DNA of 64,000 bases, taken from contig CACBDG010000009.1 of the NCBI GenBank assembly GCA_902537945.1, positions 1 through 64,000 on the forward strand, read 5' to 3'. Positions 36,017-41,969 of the stretch are shown here, piece by piece. Every line of letters starts with the position of its first letter. Position 1 is the first letter of the stretch. Under the pieces are notes generated by a model, which saw only the letters and a program-made list of their open reading frames with translations, was not told the origin of the DNA and made no database searches. Position numbers and translations under genes: made by a program. The stretch is from an uncultured SAR116 cluster alpha proteobacterium (GTDB taxonomy: Bacteria > Pseudomonadota > Alphaproteobacteria > Puniceispirillales > Marisalimonadaceae).

Positions 36017-38911
36017 ATGAATGATCAAAGCTCTGACCAAAGCTTTCTTTCTGGTGCCAATGCTACCTTCATAAATGATTTGTATAAAGAATGGAAAGAA
36101 AACTCAAATTCAGTTCCAAAGGAATGGGATTTATGGTTTAAAGCAAATGCAGACGATAATTTATTAGATGAAGGACCTAGTTGGGCTAAAAAAAACAGTA
36201 AGGTAATTGGAGCTGTCGATACTATTGAAAGTGTAAAAGCAGTTGCCCGAGGAATAGCAGGAAAAGGCAATTTATCTGCTACAGATCTGAGAGCAGCAAC
36301 AACCGACTCAATTAGAGCTATTATGCTTATTAGAGCTTACAGGATTAATGGACATCTTTTAGCTAAATTAGATCCCCTCAATTTACAAGAACAGAACATT
36401 CATCCTGAACTAGATCCTAAAACTTATGGATTTACTGATGATGACTGGGATAGACCAATATTTATAGACTATGTCCTAGGTATGGAGTCAGCTACCCTCA
36501 AACAAATAATGGAAATAGTAAAAGAGACTTATTGTGGTTCCATAGGAATTGAATTTATGCATGTTCAGGATCCAGCTCAGAAAGCATGGATACAAGAAAG
36601 GATTGAGTCAATTCGTAATGCTACAGAATTCACTAATAGAGGTAAAAAGGCTATATACGAACGTTTAGTTGGAGCAGAAACATTCGAACAATTTCTTCAC
36701 AAAAAATATGCGGGAACTAAAAGATTTGGACTTGATGGGTCTGAGTCAGTAGTACCTGCAATAGAGCAAATACTGAAACGTGGTAGCCAATTAGGAATGA
36801 AAGAAGTTGTGATAGCAATGGCTCACAGGGGTAGACTCAACCTACTATACAATATCTTAAACAAACCTTTTCGCGCGATTATCTCTGAATTTTTAGGTAA
36901 TCAAGCAAATCCAGAAGAAGCTGGAGGCTCAGGAGATGTTAAATACCATATGGGTGCTTCAGCTGACAGAGAATTTGATGGGAAAACTGTTCACTTATCT
37001 CTGCAAGCCAATCCCTCACATTTAGAGGTTGTAGCACCTGTTGTAATAGGAAGAGTACGAGCAAAACAAAATCAACACAATGATACTAATGATAGGCTAT
37101 CGGTATTAGGAATTGTTCTACACGGTGATGCTGCTTTTGCAGGTCAGGGAATAGTCGCTGAAACTTTTGATTTCTCTGGACTTAGAGGATACAGGACTGG
37201 TGGGACAATCCATATAGTTGTGAATAATCAAATTGGGTTTACTACTAGCCCAAATTACTCTCGTTCTAGTCCTTACTGTACGGATGTAGCTAAAATGGTA
37301 ATGGCTCCTATAATGCATATAAATGGAGATGATCCTGAGGCTGTTGTGCACGCCTCTAGAATTGCAACTGAATTCAGGCAAAAATTTGCGTGTGACGTAG
37401 TGCTAGATATTATAAGTTATCGACGTTATGGTCACAATGAAGGTGATGAACCGGCTTTTACTCAACCGTTAATGTATAAAACAATAGGTTCTCACGATAG
37501 CATCAGTAAAATTTATGCACAAAAGCTTGTTAATCAGGGAATTATAACTCAAAAAGAAGCTAAAGACGAAGTTGAAAATCACAATAATTATTTAGAAAAA
37601 GAATTTATAGCTGGCTCAAGTTACAAACCTAACAAGGCTGACTGGTTAGAAGGGCAATGGTCAAACTTAAGAACAGCTCACGGCGACGCAAGAAGAGGTG
37701 AAACTTCTGTTTCAACAGAAATACTAAAAGAAATTGGAAAGGCAATTACTACTGTTCCCAAAGGTTTTCAAATTAATAAAAAATTATCAAGAGTTATTGA
37801 TGCTCGCAAAAAAGCTATCGAGAGTGGAGAAGGAATTGATTGGTCAACTGCAGAACATCTCGCATTTGGCTCGTTGCTTTTGGAAGGTCATCCAGTAAGA
37901 CTATCTGGTCAGGATAGTTGTAGAGGAACTTTTTCTCAAAGACACTCAGTCTTCATAGATCAAATTTCTGAAAAAAGGTACACTCCTTTAAATAATATAA
38001 AAGACAAACAAGAAACATTCGAAGTAATTGATTCACCATTGTCAGAAGCCTCTGTACTTGGATTTGAATATGGTTTTTCTTTGACTGAACCAACAGCTTT
38101 AGTAATGTGGGAGGCACAATTTGGAGATTTCGCCAATGGCGCTCAAGTCATAGTTGACCAATTTATTTCAAGTGGTGAAGCAAAATGGTTAAGAATGTCA
38201 GGTTTAGTTATGCTTTTACCACATGGTTACGAAGGTCAAGGACCAGAGCATTCATCGGCCAGATTAGAGAGATATTTACAGCTTTGTGGTGAAGATAATA
38301 TGCAGGTACTGAATTGTAGCACACCTGCAAACTATTTTCATGCGCTACGAAGGCAACTAAAACGAGATTTTCGAAAACCACTGATAATTATGACCCCAAA
38401 GAGTTTGCTTAGACATAAAATGTGCATATCTAGTTTATCAGACATGTCAGAACAAACTGCCTTTAGAAGAGTCATTAGAGATCCAAATGTAAAACTCAAA
38501 GATAGTGAAATAAAAAGAGTAGTAATTTGTTCAGGGAAAGTTTTTTATAATTTATTAGAAGAAAGAGAAAAAAGAAAAATTAATAATATTCGAATACTTA
38601 GACTAGAACAAATTTATCCTTTTCCTTCTAAAACATTAAAAGAAATGTTATCAAAAACTCCAAGTGCTGAAGTTGTGTGGTGTCAGGAAGAGCCAAAGAA
38701 TATGGGAGCATGGTTTTTTGTAGATAGAAGGATAGAGCAAGTACTGGTTGATATTAAAGCTAAGTTAACAAGACCAATTTATGCAGGAAGATTAGAAGCT
38801 GCTTCCCCAGCAACAGGCTCTTTTTCCAGACACAACAAAGAGCAAAATGATTTAGTTAATGATGCTCTGGAATTGACGACAAAGAAAGCTAGCCAACATG
38901 CAGCAGAATAG
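36017..38911 (+). CDS. sucA: 2-oxoglutarate dehydrogenase E1 component
   Basis: Thiamin-diphosphate decarboxylase of the 2-oxoglutarate dehydrogenase complex. The N-terminal [17 protein letters not shown] segment, which in E1o contacts E2, is present. The body has [72 protein letters not shown] (ThDP site) and [23 protein letters not shown]. 964 residues, full length. It ends 8 bp before the sucB ATG. Its partner E2 has an unusual domain order, so the E1-E2 contact here is of interest. Confidence 0.97.
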
Positions 38912-38919
38912 GTTATTTG

Positions 38920-40209
38920 ATGAACAATAAAAATAAAATTGTTCAGAAGTTAGCAATGCCTTCAGCCGCAAAGCTTATAGAAGAAAAAAACTTAGACATA
39001 AATACTGTAATAGGCACTGGTGTTGATGGAAGAGTTACAAAAGGGGATGTTCTTCTTCACTTAAACTTAATCAAAAATAATAAAATCGAGGAAGAAACTT
39101 CTAAACCTCAAAAAAATATTCTTAAAAGAAAGGAAAATGGTATGGATGTCTTAGTACCAGTTTTAGGAGAATCTGTTGTAGAGGCAACTGTTTCCAAATG
39201 GATAAAGCAACAAGGAGACTATGTAGAAGTTGACGATCCAATTGTAGAATTGGAAACAGATAAGGTAACATTAGAAGTTCCTGCCTCTATTTCAGGAATA
39301 TTAGAAAACACTCTTGTTTCTGAGGGAGACACAGTAGAAGTTGGAGCTTTACTAGGAACGATAATTGCTGGAGAAAAGCCCAATAAAAAAGAAGAAGTTT
39401 CTGAAGAACTAAAAGTTAAAGATTTAGAAAAAGAAAAACCAGCTACAAATAAACTTGAGACTATATCTAATGACCAAGTAATTGAAAAAAGACAGAATGA
39501 GGATAATGTTAATCTTGAAGAGAGAATTCCGATGTCTCGTCTTCGCCAAGCTATAGCAAGGAGATTAAAAGAAGCTCAGAACACAGCTGCGATGTTAACA
39601 ACATACAATGAAGTTGATATGTCAGCACTAATGGAAATGAGAAAGAATTATCAAGAAAGCTTTGAAAAAAAGAATGGTGTTAGACTTGGATATATGAGTT
39701 TTTTTGTCAAAGCATCTATAGACGCGTTAAATCAATTTCCAGCTGTGAATGCGGAAATTGACGGTAATGACATTATTTATAAGAATTATTATAATATAGG
39801 AGTGGCCGTTGGAACATCCCAAGGTTTGGTTGTTCCTGTTCTAAAAAATGCAGACAAAATGTCTTTTGGTGAAACTGAAACAACAATTGCTGAGTTTGGC
39901 AAAAGAGCTAAAGAAGGTAATTTAGCAATGGCTGACATGGCAGGTGGAACTTTTACTATTTCAAATGGTGGTGTCTACGGATCATTGATGTCTTCACCAA
40001 TTTTGAACCCACCTCAATCCGGTATATTAGGAATGCACAAAATTCAAAAAAGACCAGTGGCAATAGGAGATAACATTGAGATTAGGCCAATGATGTATCT
40101 GGCGCTTTCTTATGATCATAGAATTATTGATGGACGAGAAGCAGTATCTTTTTTAGTAAGGATTAAAGAAATTATAGAAGATCCAAGACGTCTTGTAGTA
40201 GGCGCTTAA
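38920..40209 (+). CDS. sucB: Dihydrolipoyl succinyltransferase E2 with permuted domains
   Basis: The E2 core of the 2-oxoglutarate dehydrogenase complex. Residues 11-49 are a peripheral-subunit-binding domain ([15 protein letters not shown], then [17 protein letters not shown]). A charged linker (50-74) follows, then a lipoyl domain at about 75-150 with the lipoylated Lys115 in [13 protein letters not shown] long Lys/Glu-rich linker (151-200) has no second binding domain. The catalytic domain runs from about 202 to the end, with [10 protein letters not shown] (His400, Asp404). Normal E2 order is lipoyl, binding domain, catalytic; here the first two are swapped. A TTG one codon upstream is an alternative start. 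Confidence 0.95.
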
Positions 40210-40230: not shown

Positions 40231-41643
40231 ATGTCTGATAAAAAATTTGATCTTGTTGTAATAGGCTCAGGGCCAGGAGGATACGTTGCTGCTATCGTAG
40301 CTGCTCAAAAAGGTATGGAAGTAGCCTGTATAGAAAAACGAAAAACTCTAGGTGGAACATGTTTGAATGTAGGATGTATTCCATCTAAAGCATTGTTACA
40401 TGCCTCAGAACAGTATGAAAATTCAATTAAATCTAACGGTAATGAGGAATGGGGCATAAGATACAAAGAAGTTAAACTCGACTTACCAAAATTACTTAAA
40501 AAGAAGTTAGGTATTGTAGACGAACTTACAAAAGGAATAGACTTCCTGTTCAAAAAAAATAAAGTTACTAAATATATTGGAACTGCAAAAATTTTATCTC
40601 CTAATGAAATTGAAATCATGAATGATGAAAAAACTGAAATAATCAACGCAGATAAAATAATCATTGCTACAGGATCCGAACCTACAAATCTACCTAATAT
40701 TAATGTCGACGAAAAGAAAATTGTAACATCAACAGGTGCCTTAGAGTTGGATAAGGTTCCGCAAAAGATGGTTGTCATTGGTGCTGGAATAATTGGTCTT
40801 GAAATGGGTACTGTATGGAGAAGGCTTGGAGCAGAAGTTGAGGTGGTAGAATATATGCCTAGAATTTTACCTGGAATAGACGATGAAATAGCAAAAAACT
40901 TCATGAAAATACTTCAAAAGCAAGGTATAAAATTTAAACTGGGCTACTCAGTTGAAAAAGCAAAGATAGAAAAAGATAAAGTATTACTCTCTATTAAAGA
41001 TGTTAATAATAATACACTTAATGAATTAGTTGCAGATGTTGCGCTTGTTTCAGTTGGTAGAAAACCAAACACTAACGGATTAGGTTTAGATAAATTAAAT
41101 TTGAAAATAGACAAACATGGTTTTATAGAAACAAACGAAAATTTTCAAACTTCAATTTCAAATATTTATGCAATTGGAGATGTAATTAGGGGGCCTATGT
41201 TAGCTCACAAAGCCGAAGAAGATGGTGTAGCTGCTGTTGAAATAATGAATGGTGAAGCAGGACATGTTGACTACAATCTTGTTCCAGGAATTATTTATAC
41301 TGCACCTGAAGTGGCAGTAATTGGTAAAACAGAAGAAGAATTAAAAGCAGCGGGAATTTCTTATAATAAAGGGACATTTCCATTAATGGCAAATAGTAGA
41401 GCTAAAGCTATTAGTCATACTGATGGTATGGTGAAGATACTTTCTGACAAATCCACAGATAAAATTTTGGGGGCTCACATGATTGGCCATGAGGCAGGAA
41501 CTGTAATTCATGAATTATCCATTGCTATGGGATTTGGAGCATCATCAGAAGATGTGGCTAGAATATGTCACGGCCATCCTACTGTTAACGAGGCAATTAA
41601 AGAAGCTGCATTAGCAACCTACTCTAAAGCAATACATTTTTAA
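40231..41643 (+). CDS. lpdA: Dihydrolipoamide dehydrogenase
   Basis: The E3 flavoprotein that reoxidises dihydrolipoamide. It has the FAD motif VVIGSGPGGYVAAI, the redox disulfide Cys44/Cys49 in GGTCLNVGCIPSK, the NAD motif VVIGAGIIGLEMGTVWRRLG, IGDVIRGPMLAHKAEEDG and the C-terminal HGHPTVNEA with the catalytic His-Glu pair. 470 residues. Last gene of mdh-sucCDAB-lpd. Its stop overlaps that of the convergent SMR gene in a shared TTAA. Confidence 0.97.
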   Translation: MSDKKFDLVVIGSGPGGYVAAIVAAQKGMEVACIEKRKTLGGTCLNVGCIPSKALLHASEQYENSIKSNGNEEWGIRYKEVKLDLPKLLKKKLGIVDELTKGIDFLFKKNKVTKYIGTAKILSPNEIEIMNDEKTEIINADKIIIATGSEPTNLPNINVDEKKIVTSTGALELDKVPQKMVVIGAGIIGLEMGTVWRRLGAEVEVVEYMPRILPGIDDEIAKNFMKILQKQGIKFKLGYSVEKAKIEKDKVLLSIKDVNNNTLNELVADVALVSVGRKPNTNGLGLDKLNLKIDKHGFIETNENFQTSISNIYAIGDVIRGPMLAHKAEEDGVAAVEIMNGEAGHVDYNLVPGIIYTAPEVAVIGKTEEELKAAGISYNKGTFPLMANSRAKAISHTDGMVKILSDKSTDKILGAHMIGHEAGTVIHELSIAMGFGASSEDVARICHGHPTVNEAIKEAALATYSKAIHF

Positions 41644-41969
41644 CTGGCACTCATTTTACTAAAAAAAACTAATATTATTACCCCGAGAATTATTAGTAAA
41701 AGTCCTAAAATAGCTAACATATCTGGTATCTCTTTATATTTTAAGGCGCCTAAAATTGTAATTGCAGAAATACCTATGCCCGCCCAAATTGAATATGTAA
41801 TGGCGATAGGAATAGTTTTCATTGCTAGCATCATGAAATAGAAAGCTGTCCCATAACCTATTACTACATAGGTTGTAGGTAAAAACTCTGTAAGATTATT
41901 GGTGCTTTTAAGATAAGTAGTAGCTATCACCTCACCAACAATAGCTATAAAAAGGTAAAAGTATCCCAT
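41640..41969 (-). CDS. SMR-family small multidrug transporter (EmrE/QacE-like)
   Basis: A four-TM small multidrug resistance protein of 109 residues. The essential TM1 glutamate is Glu13 (FIAIVGEVIATTYLKST, matching EmrE Glu14). WAGIGISAITILGALKYKE in TM3 is the family signature, and PDMLAILGLLLIILGVIILVF is TM4. It probably works as an antiparallel dimer, exporting cations with proton exchange, but the substrate is unknown. It faces lpdA. Confidence 0.92.
   Translation of the reverse strand: MGYFYLFIAIVGEVIATTYLKSTNNLTEFLPTTYVVIGYGTAFYFMMLAMKTIPIAITYSIWAGIGISAITILGALKYKEIPDMLAILGLLLIILGVIILVFFSKMSAS

Follow-up and report, generated by a model that had tools for sequence, protein, structure and literature searches.

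Permuted domain order in the SucB of one SAR116 family, with a conserved internal start signal and a possible two-isoform E2

The sucB gene of an uncultured SAR116 cluster alphaproteobacterium, analyzed here within a stretch of DNA of 64,000 nucleotides (the window), encodes a 2-oxoglutarate dehydrogenase E2 in which the peripheral-subunit-binding domain (PSBD, the E3-binding domain) comes first and is followed by the lipoyl domain and then by the catalytic core, whereas the textbook plan of these multienzyme complexes runs lipoyl, PSBD, core. This permuted order has a single origin within one SAR116 family, its displaced PSBD is under constraint, and a start signal is conserved inside the reading frame at the very junction of PSBD and lipoyl domain. 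We propose that one SucB gene may thus give rise to two products, a long E2 with an E3 dock and a short lipoyl-core E2, and consider this the best explanation of the features as a whole, with a rough probability of 0.6.

Results

The window SucB carries its PSBD ahead of the lipoyl domain

PF02817, PF00364 and PF00198 each matched the window SucB over one stretch (Table 1), and custom-built HMMs likewise returned PSBD, lipoyl, core as the single order. All the parts of a SucB are therefore present, that is, a PSBD, a SucB-type core and a lipoyl domain with a lipoyl-lysine motif, in an order other than the canonical one. The lipoyl domain includes K115, which we take, from the ETDKV motif around it, to be the expected lipoyl-lysine and which is invariant in 11 of 11 aligned permuted proteins. 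Neither Pfam nor the custom HMMs detected a second PSBD or a lipoyl remnant in the linker or in the leader. A preliminary description of this DNA had read the protein as a binding domain, then a lipoyl domain with Lys115, then a linker devoid of a second binding domain, then the core, and the searches bear it out: a PSBD does lie at the N-terminus, K115 falls within the PF00364 match, and residues 151-200 are PSBD-free by Pfam.

The core is 70-77% identical to the best SucB cores of the SAR116 order among the matches listed. In a Foldseek search, the best 50 of 1000 matches, which are dominated by E2 cores and so do not address the PSBD, were headed by E2 proteins, with ranks 3-24 being mostly OGDH E2 cores. 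L001, the remaining E2 of this genome and of PDH type, keeps the canonical domain order, and the one PSBD above cut-off besides that of SucB in this genome (1.93 Mb, 75% complete) belongs to a PDH-type E2.

Gene order in the window is sucC-sucD-sucA-sucB-lpd in a single direction (sucC and sucD being named from the reading of their ORFs), so that sucB has the sucA and lpd neighbors of a SucB-type operon; the gap between the sucA stop and the long sucB start is 8 nt. An in-frame TTG at 38917-38919 abuts the ATG at 38920, and automatic start calling favors the one extra codon. Beyond lpd, a frame of 109 aa on the reverse strand (41640..41969) has, by eye, the look of a membrane protein of the small multidrug-resistance transporter type; it is convergent with lpd and overlaps the lpd stop by 4 nt.

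Table 1. Features of the sucB region in the window, in window coordinates
Feature	Position	Strand	Basis
sucA, E1 of 2-oxoglutarate dehydrogenase	36017..38911	+	ORF; PF16078, PF00676, PF02779, PF16870; directly upstream of sucB
sucB long reading frame	38920..40209	+	ORF from ATG 38920, 429 aa, PSBD - lipoyl - core; conserved in 39 distinct relatives
E3-binding domain (PSBD), N-terminal, residues 11-45	38950..39054	+	PF02817, 45.5 bits (cut-off 23.7)
GAAAGG, Shine-Dalgarno-like hexamer in linker	39128..39133	+	at -14..-9 of internal ATG, 39/39 genes (AAAGGG in L071)
Internal in-frame ATG (Met75), at the position of the canonical sucB start	39142..39144	+	ATG in 39/39
Predicted short E2 lacking the PSBD (355 aa, lipoyl - core)	39142..40209	+	predicted from the conserved start signal
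Lipoyl domain, residues 77-148; K115 at 39262-39264	39148..39363	+	PF00364, 65.1 bits (cut-off 22.1)
Charged linker without PSBD, residues 151-199	39370..39516	+	Pfam, custom HMMs; pLDDT <50 over 155-196
Catalytic core, residues 200-426	39517..40197	+	PF00198, 279.8 bits (cut-off 23)
lpd, dihydrolipoamide dehydrogenase (E3), next gene	40231..41643	+	ORF; PF07992, PF02852

The permuted order is spread through one SAR116 family and has a single origin

An alignment of the permuted N-terminal half served as query against 136 genomes of the SAR116 order. With the best match taken per genome, a match running from the PSBD into the lipoyl domain was obtained in 39 of the 58 genomes of the window's family (51-100% complete), in all four genera represented (28/40 in the window's genus; 1/3, 1/2 and 9/13 in the other three). 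In two of the remaining genomes (G033 and G076) the locus is truncated by the start of a contig, and the other 17 lacked any SucB-type match; a canonical SucB was found in none of the 58. Among the matches listed, no match spanning PSBD and lipoyl domain occurred in the 78 genomes of the order's other three families, and the domain maps of sampled genomes from these families showed the canonical order. The most divergent spanning match in this survey had an E-value of 3.4e-54, the best other match one of 5.3e-35. Among the matches listed, spanning matches were likewise absent from 384 other alphaproteobacteria, four of them in the same order (385 genomes searched, 47 without any match), and from another 269 Pseudomonadota (out of 299 searched, a number that takes in the window's own genome and about 29 covered before; 34 without a match), the verdict in each case being that of the best listed E-value per matched genome, which quite different permuted E2 types would escape. 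Elsewhere in the class, the 29 SucB-like loci whose PSBDs resemble the permuted one most, again among the matches listed, comprised 27 with the lipoyl domain before the PSBD and two without a lipoyl domain in frame. Neither tandem-domain intermediates nor a separate PSBD gene were seen among the loci examined.

In a tree of lipoyl domain plus core built from 66 chosen rows, the 12 permuted SucBs formed one clade (100/99), which sits among the SAR116 SucBs, with the deeper forks left open. One clade, family-wide spread and the lack of spanning matches elsewhere together argue that the swap arose once, before the family diversified, and was inherited by descent. The same gene is present in SAR116 cluster single-cell and metagenome genomes, SCGC AAA015-N04 and AAA536-K22 included. 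The preliminary description had surmised that the order might occur in related marine alphaproteobacteria, as indeed it does in the 39 genomes of this family, and had known of no described case; the literature that we searched, in which subscription journals are thinly covered, yielded no description of a swapped E2 order or of an E2 isoform pair either. Judging from the account in PMC8547437, the window's family would correspond to AAA536-G10 and the lineage thus probably belongs to the streamlined low-GC subclade of SAR116, whose members are described there as widespread in surface oceans and as having very short intergenic spacers. No cultured member of the lineage is known to us, and subclades II and III are stated in a 2025 paper to lack cultured representatives (PMC12262181).

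A start signal is conserved at the junction of PSBD and lipoyl domain

All 39 permuted genes carry GAAAGG-N8-ATG at this junction (AAAGGG in L071), that is, a conserved candidate ribosome-binding site (RBS) with an in-frame start codon, in a linker that is otherwise variable. The frequency of the major base is 97-100% at positions -14 to -9 and 100% at the ATG, against a mean of 67% at -75 to -16; a few isolated A positions upstream reach 92-97% too. GAAAGG can base-pair with the 3' end of this genome's 16S rRNA, GGATCACCTCCTTTC (a pattern present in 15 of 61 relatives, of which many are incomplete), to which it is complementary. For the internal site the predicted anti-SD duplex energy ranges from -8.1 to -12.4 kcal/mol, for the long start from -0.7 to -6.9, and the internal site has the stronger duplex in each of the 39 genes.

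Within the hexamer, the Lys codon is AAG in 38 of 39 genes, compared with 304 of 1488 Lys codons (20%) overall, and among eight clade representatives none of 11 other invariant Lys columns is all-AAG. That AAG is used by all of the seven representatives that have Lys here would have a probability of about 1.5e-5 if the lineages were independent, and their independence is only partial. L071 has Lys-Arg where the others have Arg-Lys or Gly-Lys, and AAAGG is kept nonetheless. Few of the 203 amino-acid columns that are invariant in the eight representatives retain one codon, and because core dS between clades is 1.95-3.2, with synonymous sites near saturation, silent sites common to the clades exceed what recent ancestry would leave.

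Met75 is the only one of nine invariant Met columns with a duplex of -8 or lower in all eight representatives. Strong internal SD sequences are not rare as such, given that this value is reached at 25 of the 438 internal ATGs in the window, while only 7 of its 56 true gene starts reach it (median -3.9). Synonymous codon randomization gave single-lineage P values of 0.015-0.23, and in the Lys-Gly lineages the amino acids leave almost no alternative to the AAAGG string (0.93). In view of these weak single-lineage values and of the other strong internal SDs, the case rests on conservation and not on the strength of the site in one gene. The RBS and ATG at the junction had been overlooked in the preliminary description, and the swap likely gains a different meaning through them.

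Origin and constraint of the displaced PSBD

In canonical sucBs of the order, 23-81 nt separate the sucA stop from the ATG; in the permuted genes, the distance from the sucA stop is 224-243 nt to the internal ATG and 8-13 nt to the long start. Among 17 distinct canonical sucBs from the order, seven have GAAAGG-N7/8-ATG as their start signal, and six of the seven fall in or next to family f2. The occurrence of the same signal at the start of canonical genes and, conserved, inside the permuted ones suggests that a PSBD segment probably became inserted downstream of sucA and ahead of the original sucB start, which was kept. In the simplest history, the segment would have entered the spacer between sucA and the sucB RBS and been fused in frame, and the old PSBD would have been lost.

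The 24 distinct permuted PSBDs all favor the canonical SucB profile (29-54 bits) over that of PDH E2 (12-28 bits), which rules out a PDH-type origin. By best PSBD score, seven of seven representatives are nearer to other alphaproteobacterial SucBs than to those of their own order among the matches listed; because similarity to the permuted PSBD had been the criterion for choosing the comparison sequences, we do not conclude a foreign origin from this.

The dN/dS of the PSBD is 0.08-0.39 over seven pairs, indicating purifying selection, with values of 0.16-0.96 and 0.16-1.07 for the two linkers and of 0.01-0.11 for lipoyl domain and core. AlphaFold (mean pLDDT 74.3 with 24 alignment rows versus 37.6 with 11) modeled the PSBD at a pLDDT of 81-82 over residues 11-50, with the two expected helices at 14-22 and 41-58 and with both linkers disordered, and the PSBD profile matches solved PSBDs, including the PSBD chain of 1EBD (E 1.6e-9). 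At the positions of the Bacillus PSBD arginines that we take to be E3 contacts, the permuted PSBD has Ala and Glu in the alignment, which counts against the explanation proposed below; Ala at such a position is also found in several canonical alphaproteobacterial SucBs. Selection, model and profile match together point to a maintained domain that likely binds E3.

Discussion

The features described above could have come about as follows. In the common ancestor of the SAR116 family, a PSBD segment of SucB type would have ended up between sucA and the former RBS of sucB, in frame with the latter gene, the original PSBD between lipoyl domain and core would have been lost, and the old RBS and ATG would have been retained inside the fused frame. 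Ribosomes leaving sucA would initiate 8-13 nt further on, at a weakly SD-like site, giving the long E2 with its E3 dock in a distal position; others would initiate internally, giving the short E2 of lipoyl domain and core. Because both forms share the core that builds the oligomer, mixed cores with fewer E3 docks than lipoyl arms would ensue, and the long:short ratio would set E3 loading. Such an arrangement would be impossible in the canonical order; it is the position of the PSBD ahead of the old start that would enable an internal start to drop the PSBD and keep the lipoyl arm. Production of both forms, binding of E3 by the PSBD and control of E3 loading by the long:short ratio are inferred, and we incline, by a little over even odds, to the view that the E2 was turned into a two-isoform core in which translation initiation sets the number of E3 docks per complex.

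From the anatomy it also follows that the tethering of the lipoyl arm would be changed by the swap. The preliminary description had regarded the displaced domain as a dock for E3 and E1, which is probably half right. The E3 part probably stands and the E1 part probably does not: work on human proteins reports that in OGDH complexes E1 attaches to the E2 core by way of its own N-terminus (PMC8146983), and the window SucA carries the E1 N-terminal domain PF16078 (47.3 bits). With E1 able to dock on the core by its own N-terminus, E3 docking would be left to the PSBD. Moreover, a ratio of one E3 dimer to three E2o trimers is quoted for human OGDHC (PMC9974300), so that not every E2 would need a dock.

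It is conceivable, if unlikely, that only the long protein is made, the rearrangement being neutral. The PSBD would then still hold E3, now from the arm's free end, with the internal RBS a fossil of the old sucB start. In favor of this, none of the 39 genes has an interrupted long frame, the PSBD encoded there is under constraint in the seven pairs compared, and a fossil RBS is what would be expected if a segment had landed upstream of the old start. However, a fossil should decay in a linker that is not conserved and in genes whose silent sites are near saturation, yet GAAAGG and ATG are found in 39 of 39 of them. Conversely, the short lipoyl-core protein could be the main E2, with the PSBD part being mostly a minor tag that arises by leaky re-initiation, comparable to the eukaryotic E3 adaptor. 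This is a rather improbable option in our estimate, although it would agree with the stronger predicted SD of the internal site in 39 of 39 genes, with the stoichiometry quoted for human OGDHC and with eukaryotic E2o, which is described as being without a PSBD and as having E3 recruited by MRPS36 (PMC9974300). Against it, the long start invariably lies 8-13 nt past the sucA stop, and because this distance suits coupled translation, the long start is perhaps efficient in spite of its weak SD. As for an artefact of assembly or annotation, including the assembly join that the preliminary description had considered, the initial finding did come from one contig, but the order recurs in many separately assembled genomes, most of them single-cell, among them 39 genomes of four genera and independent single-cell assemblies of another collection, which rules it out for all practical purposes.

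The two-isoform E2 that we favor has partial counterparts in known systems. With canonical SucB/OdhB it shares the three domains, the sucA/lpd operon and a core nested among SAR116-order SucBs; it differs in that the PSBD comes first, with none between lipoyl domain and core, and in having a start signal inside the frame. Like eukaryotic OGDH with MRPS36, as described in PMC9974300, it would have no PSBD beside the E2o core and recruit E3 otherwise, but the adaptor is a separate protein there and an N-terminal extension of the same gene here. Core chains with and without an E3-binding function, as proposed here, are also described for mammalian PDH E2/E3BP (PMC8146983), where they come from two genes, in contrast to one gene with two proposed starts. 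Finally, in-frame internal starts that yield two isoforms are established in phage endolysins, according to PMC9430671, and the proposed SucB pair would resemble these in comprising a long and a short product with a common C-terminus and separate RBSs; the products are demonstrated for the endolysins, whereas for SucB the argument is one of signal conservation.

A stable natural permutation of the textbook E2 plan offers a test of whether channelling depends on the domain order. Should both isoforms be produced, sucB would be a bacterial counterpart, in a single gene, to the solutions found with E2/E3BP and with MRPS36, and the number of E3 docks required by a complex could be tested directly.

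Several further loci came to light in the course of these comparisons. Two SucB-like loci from two other marine alphaproteobacterial MAGs, L078 (frame 5851+, 453 aa) and L076 (frame 6058+, 409 aa), have a lipoyl domain and a core and no PSBD by custom HMM, possibly through loss of the E3 dock, and the PSBD match of a SucB-like locus from a Myxococcales MAG, L123 (frame 5998+, 406 aa), is very weak (9 bits). At L177 (frame 2, -), L179 (246, +) and L186 (729, -), lipoyl domains without an E2 core adjoin a PDH-type E2; these are presumably the known alphaproteobacterial E1-beta with a lipoyl domain.
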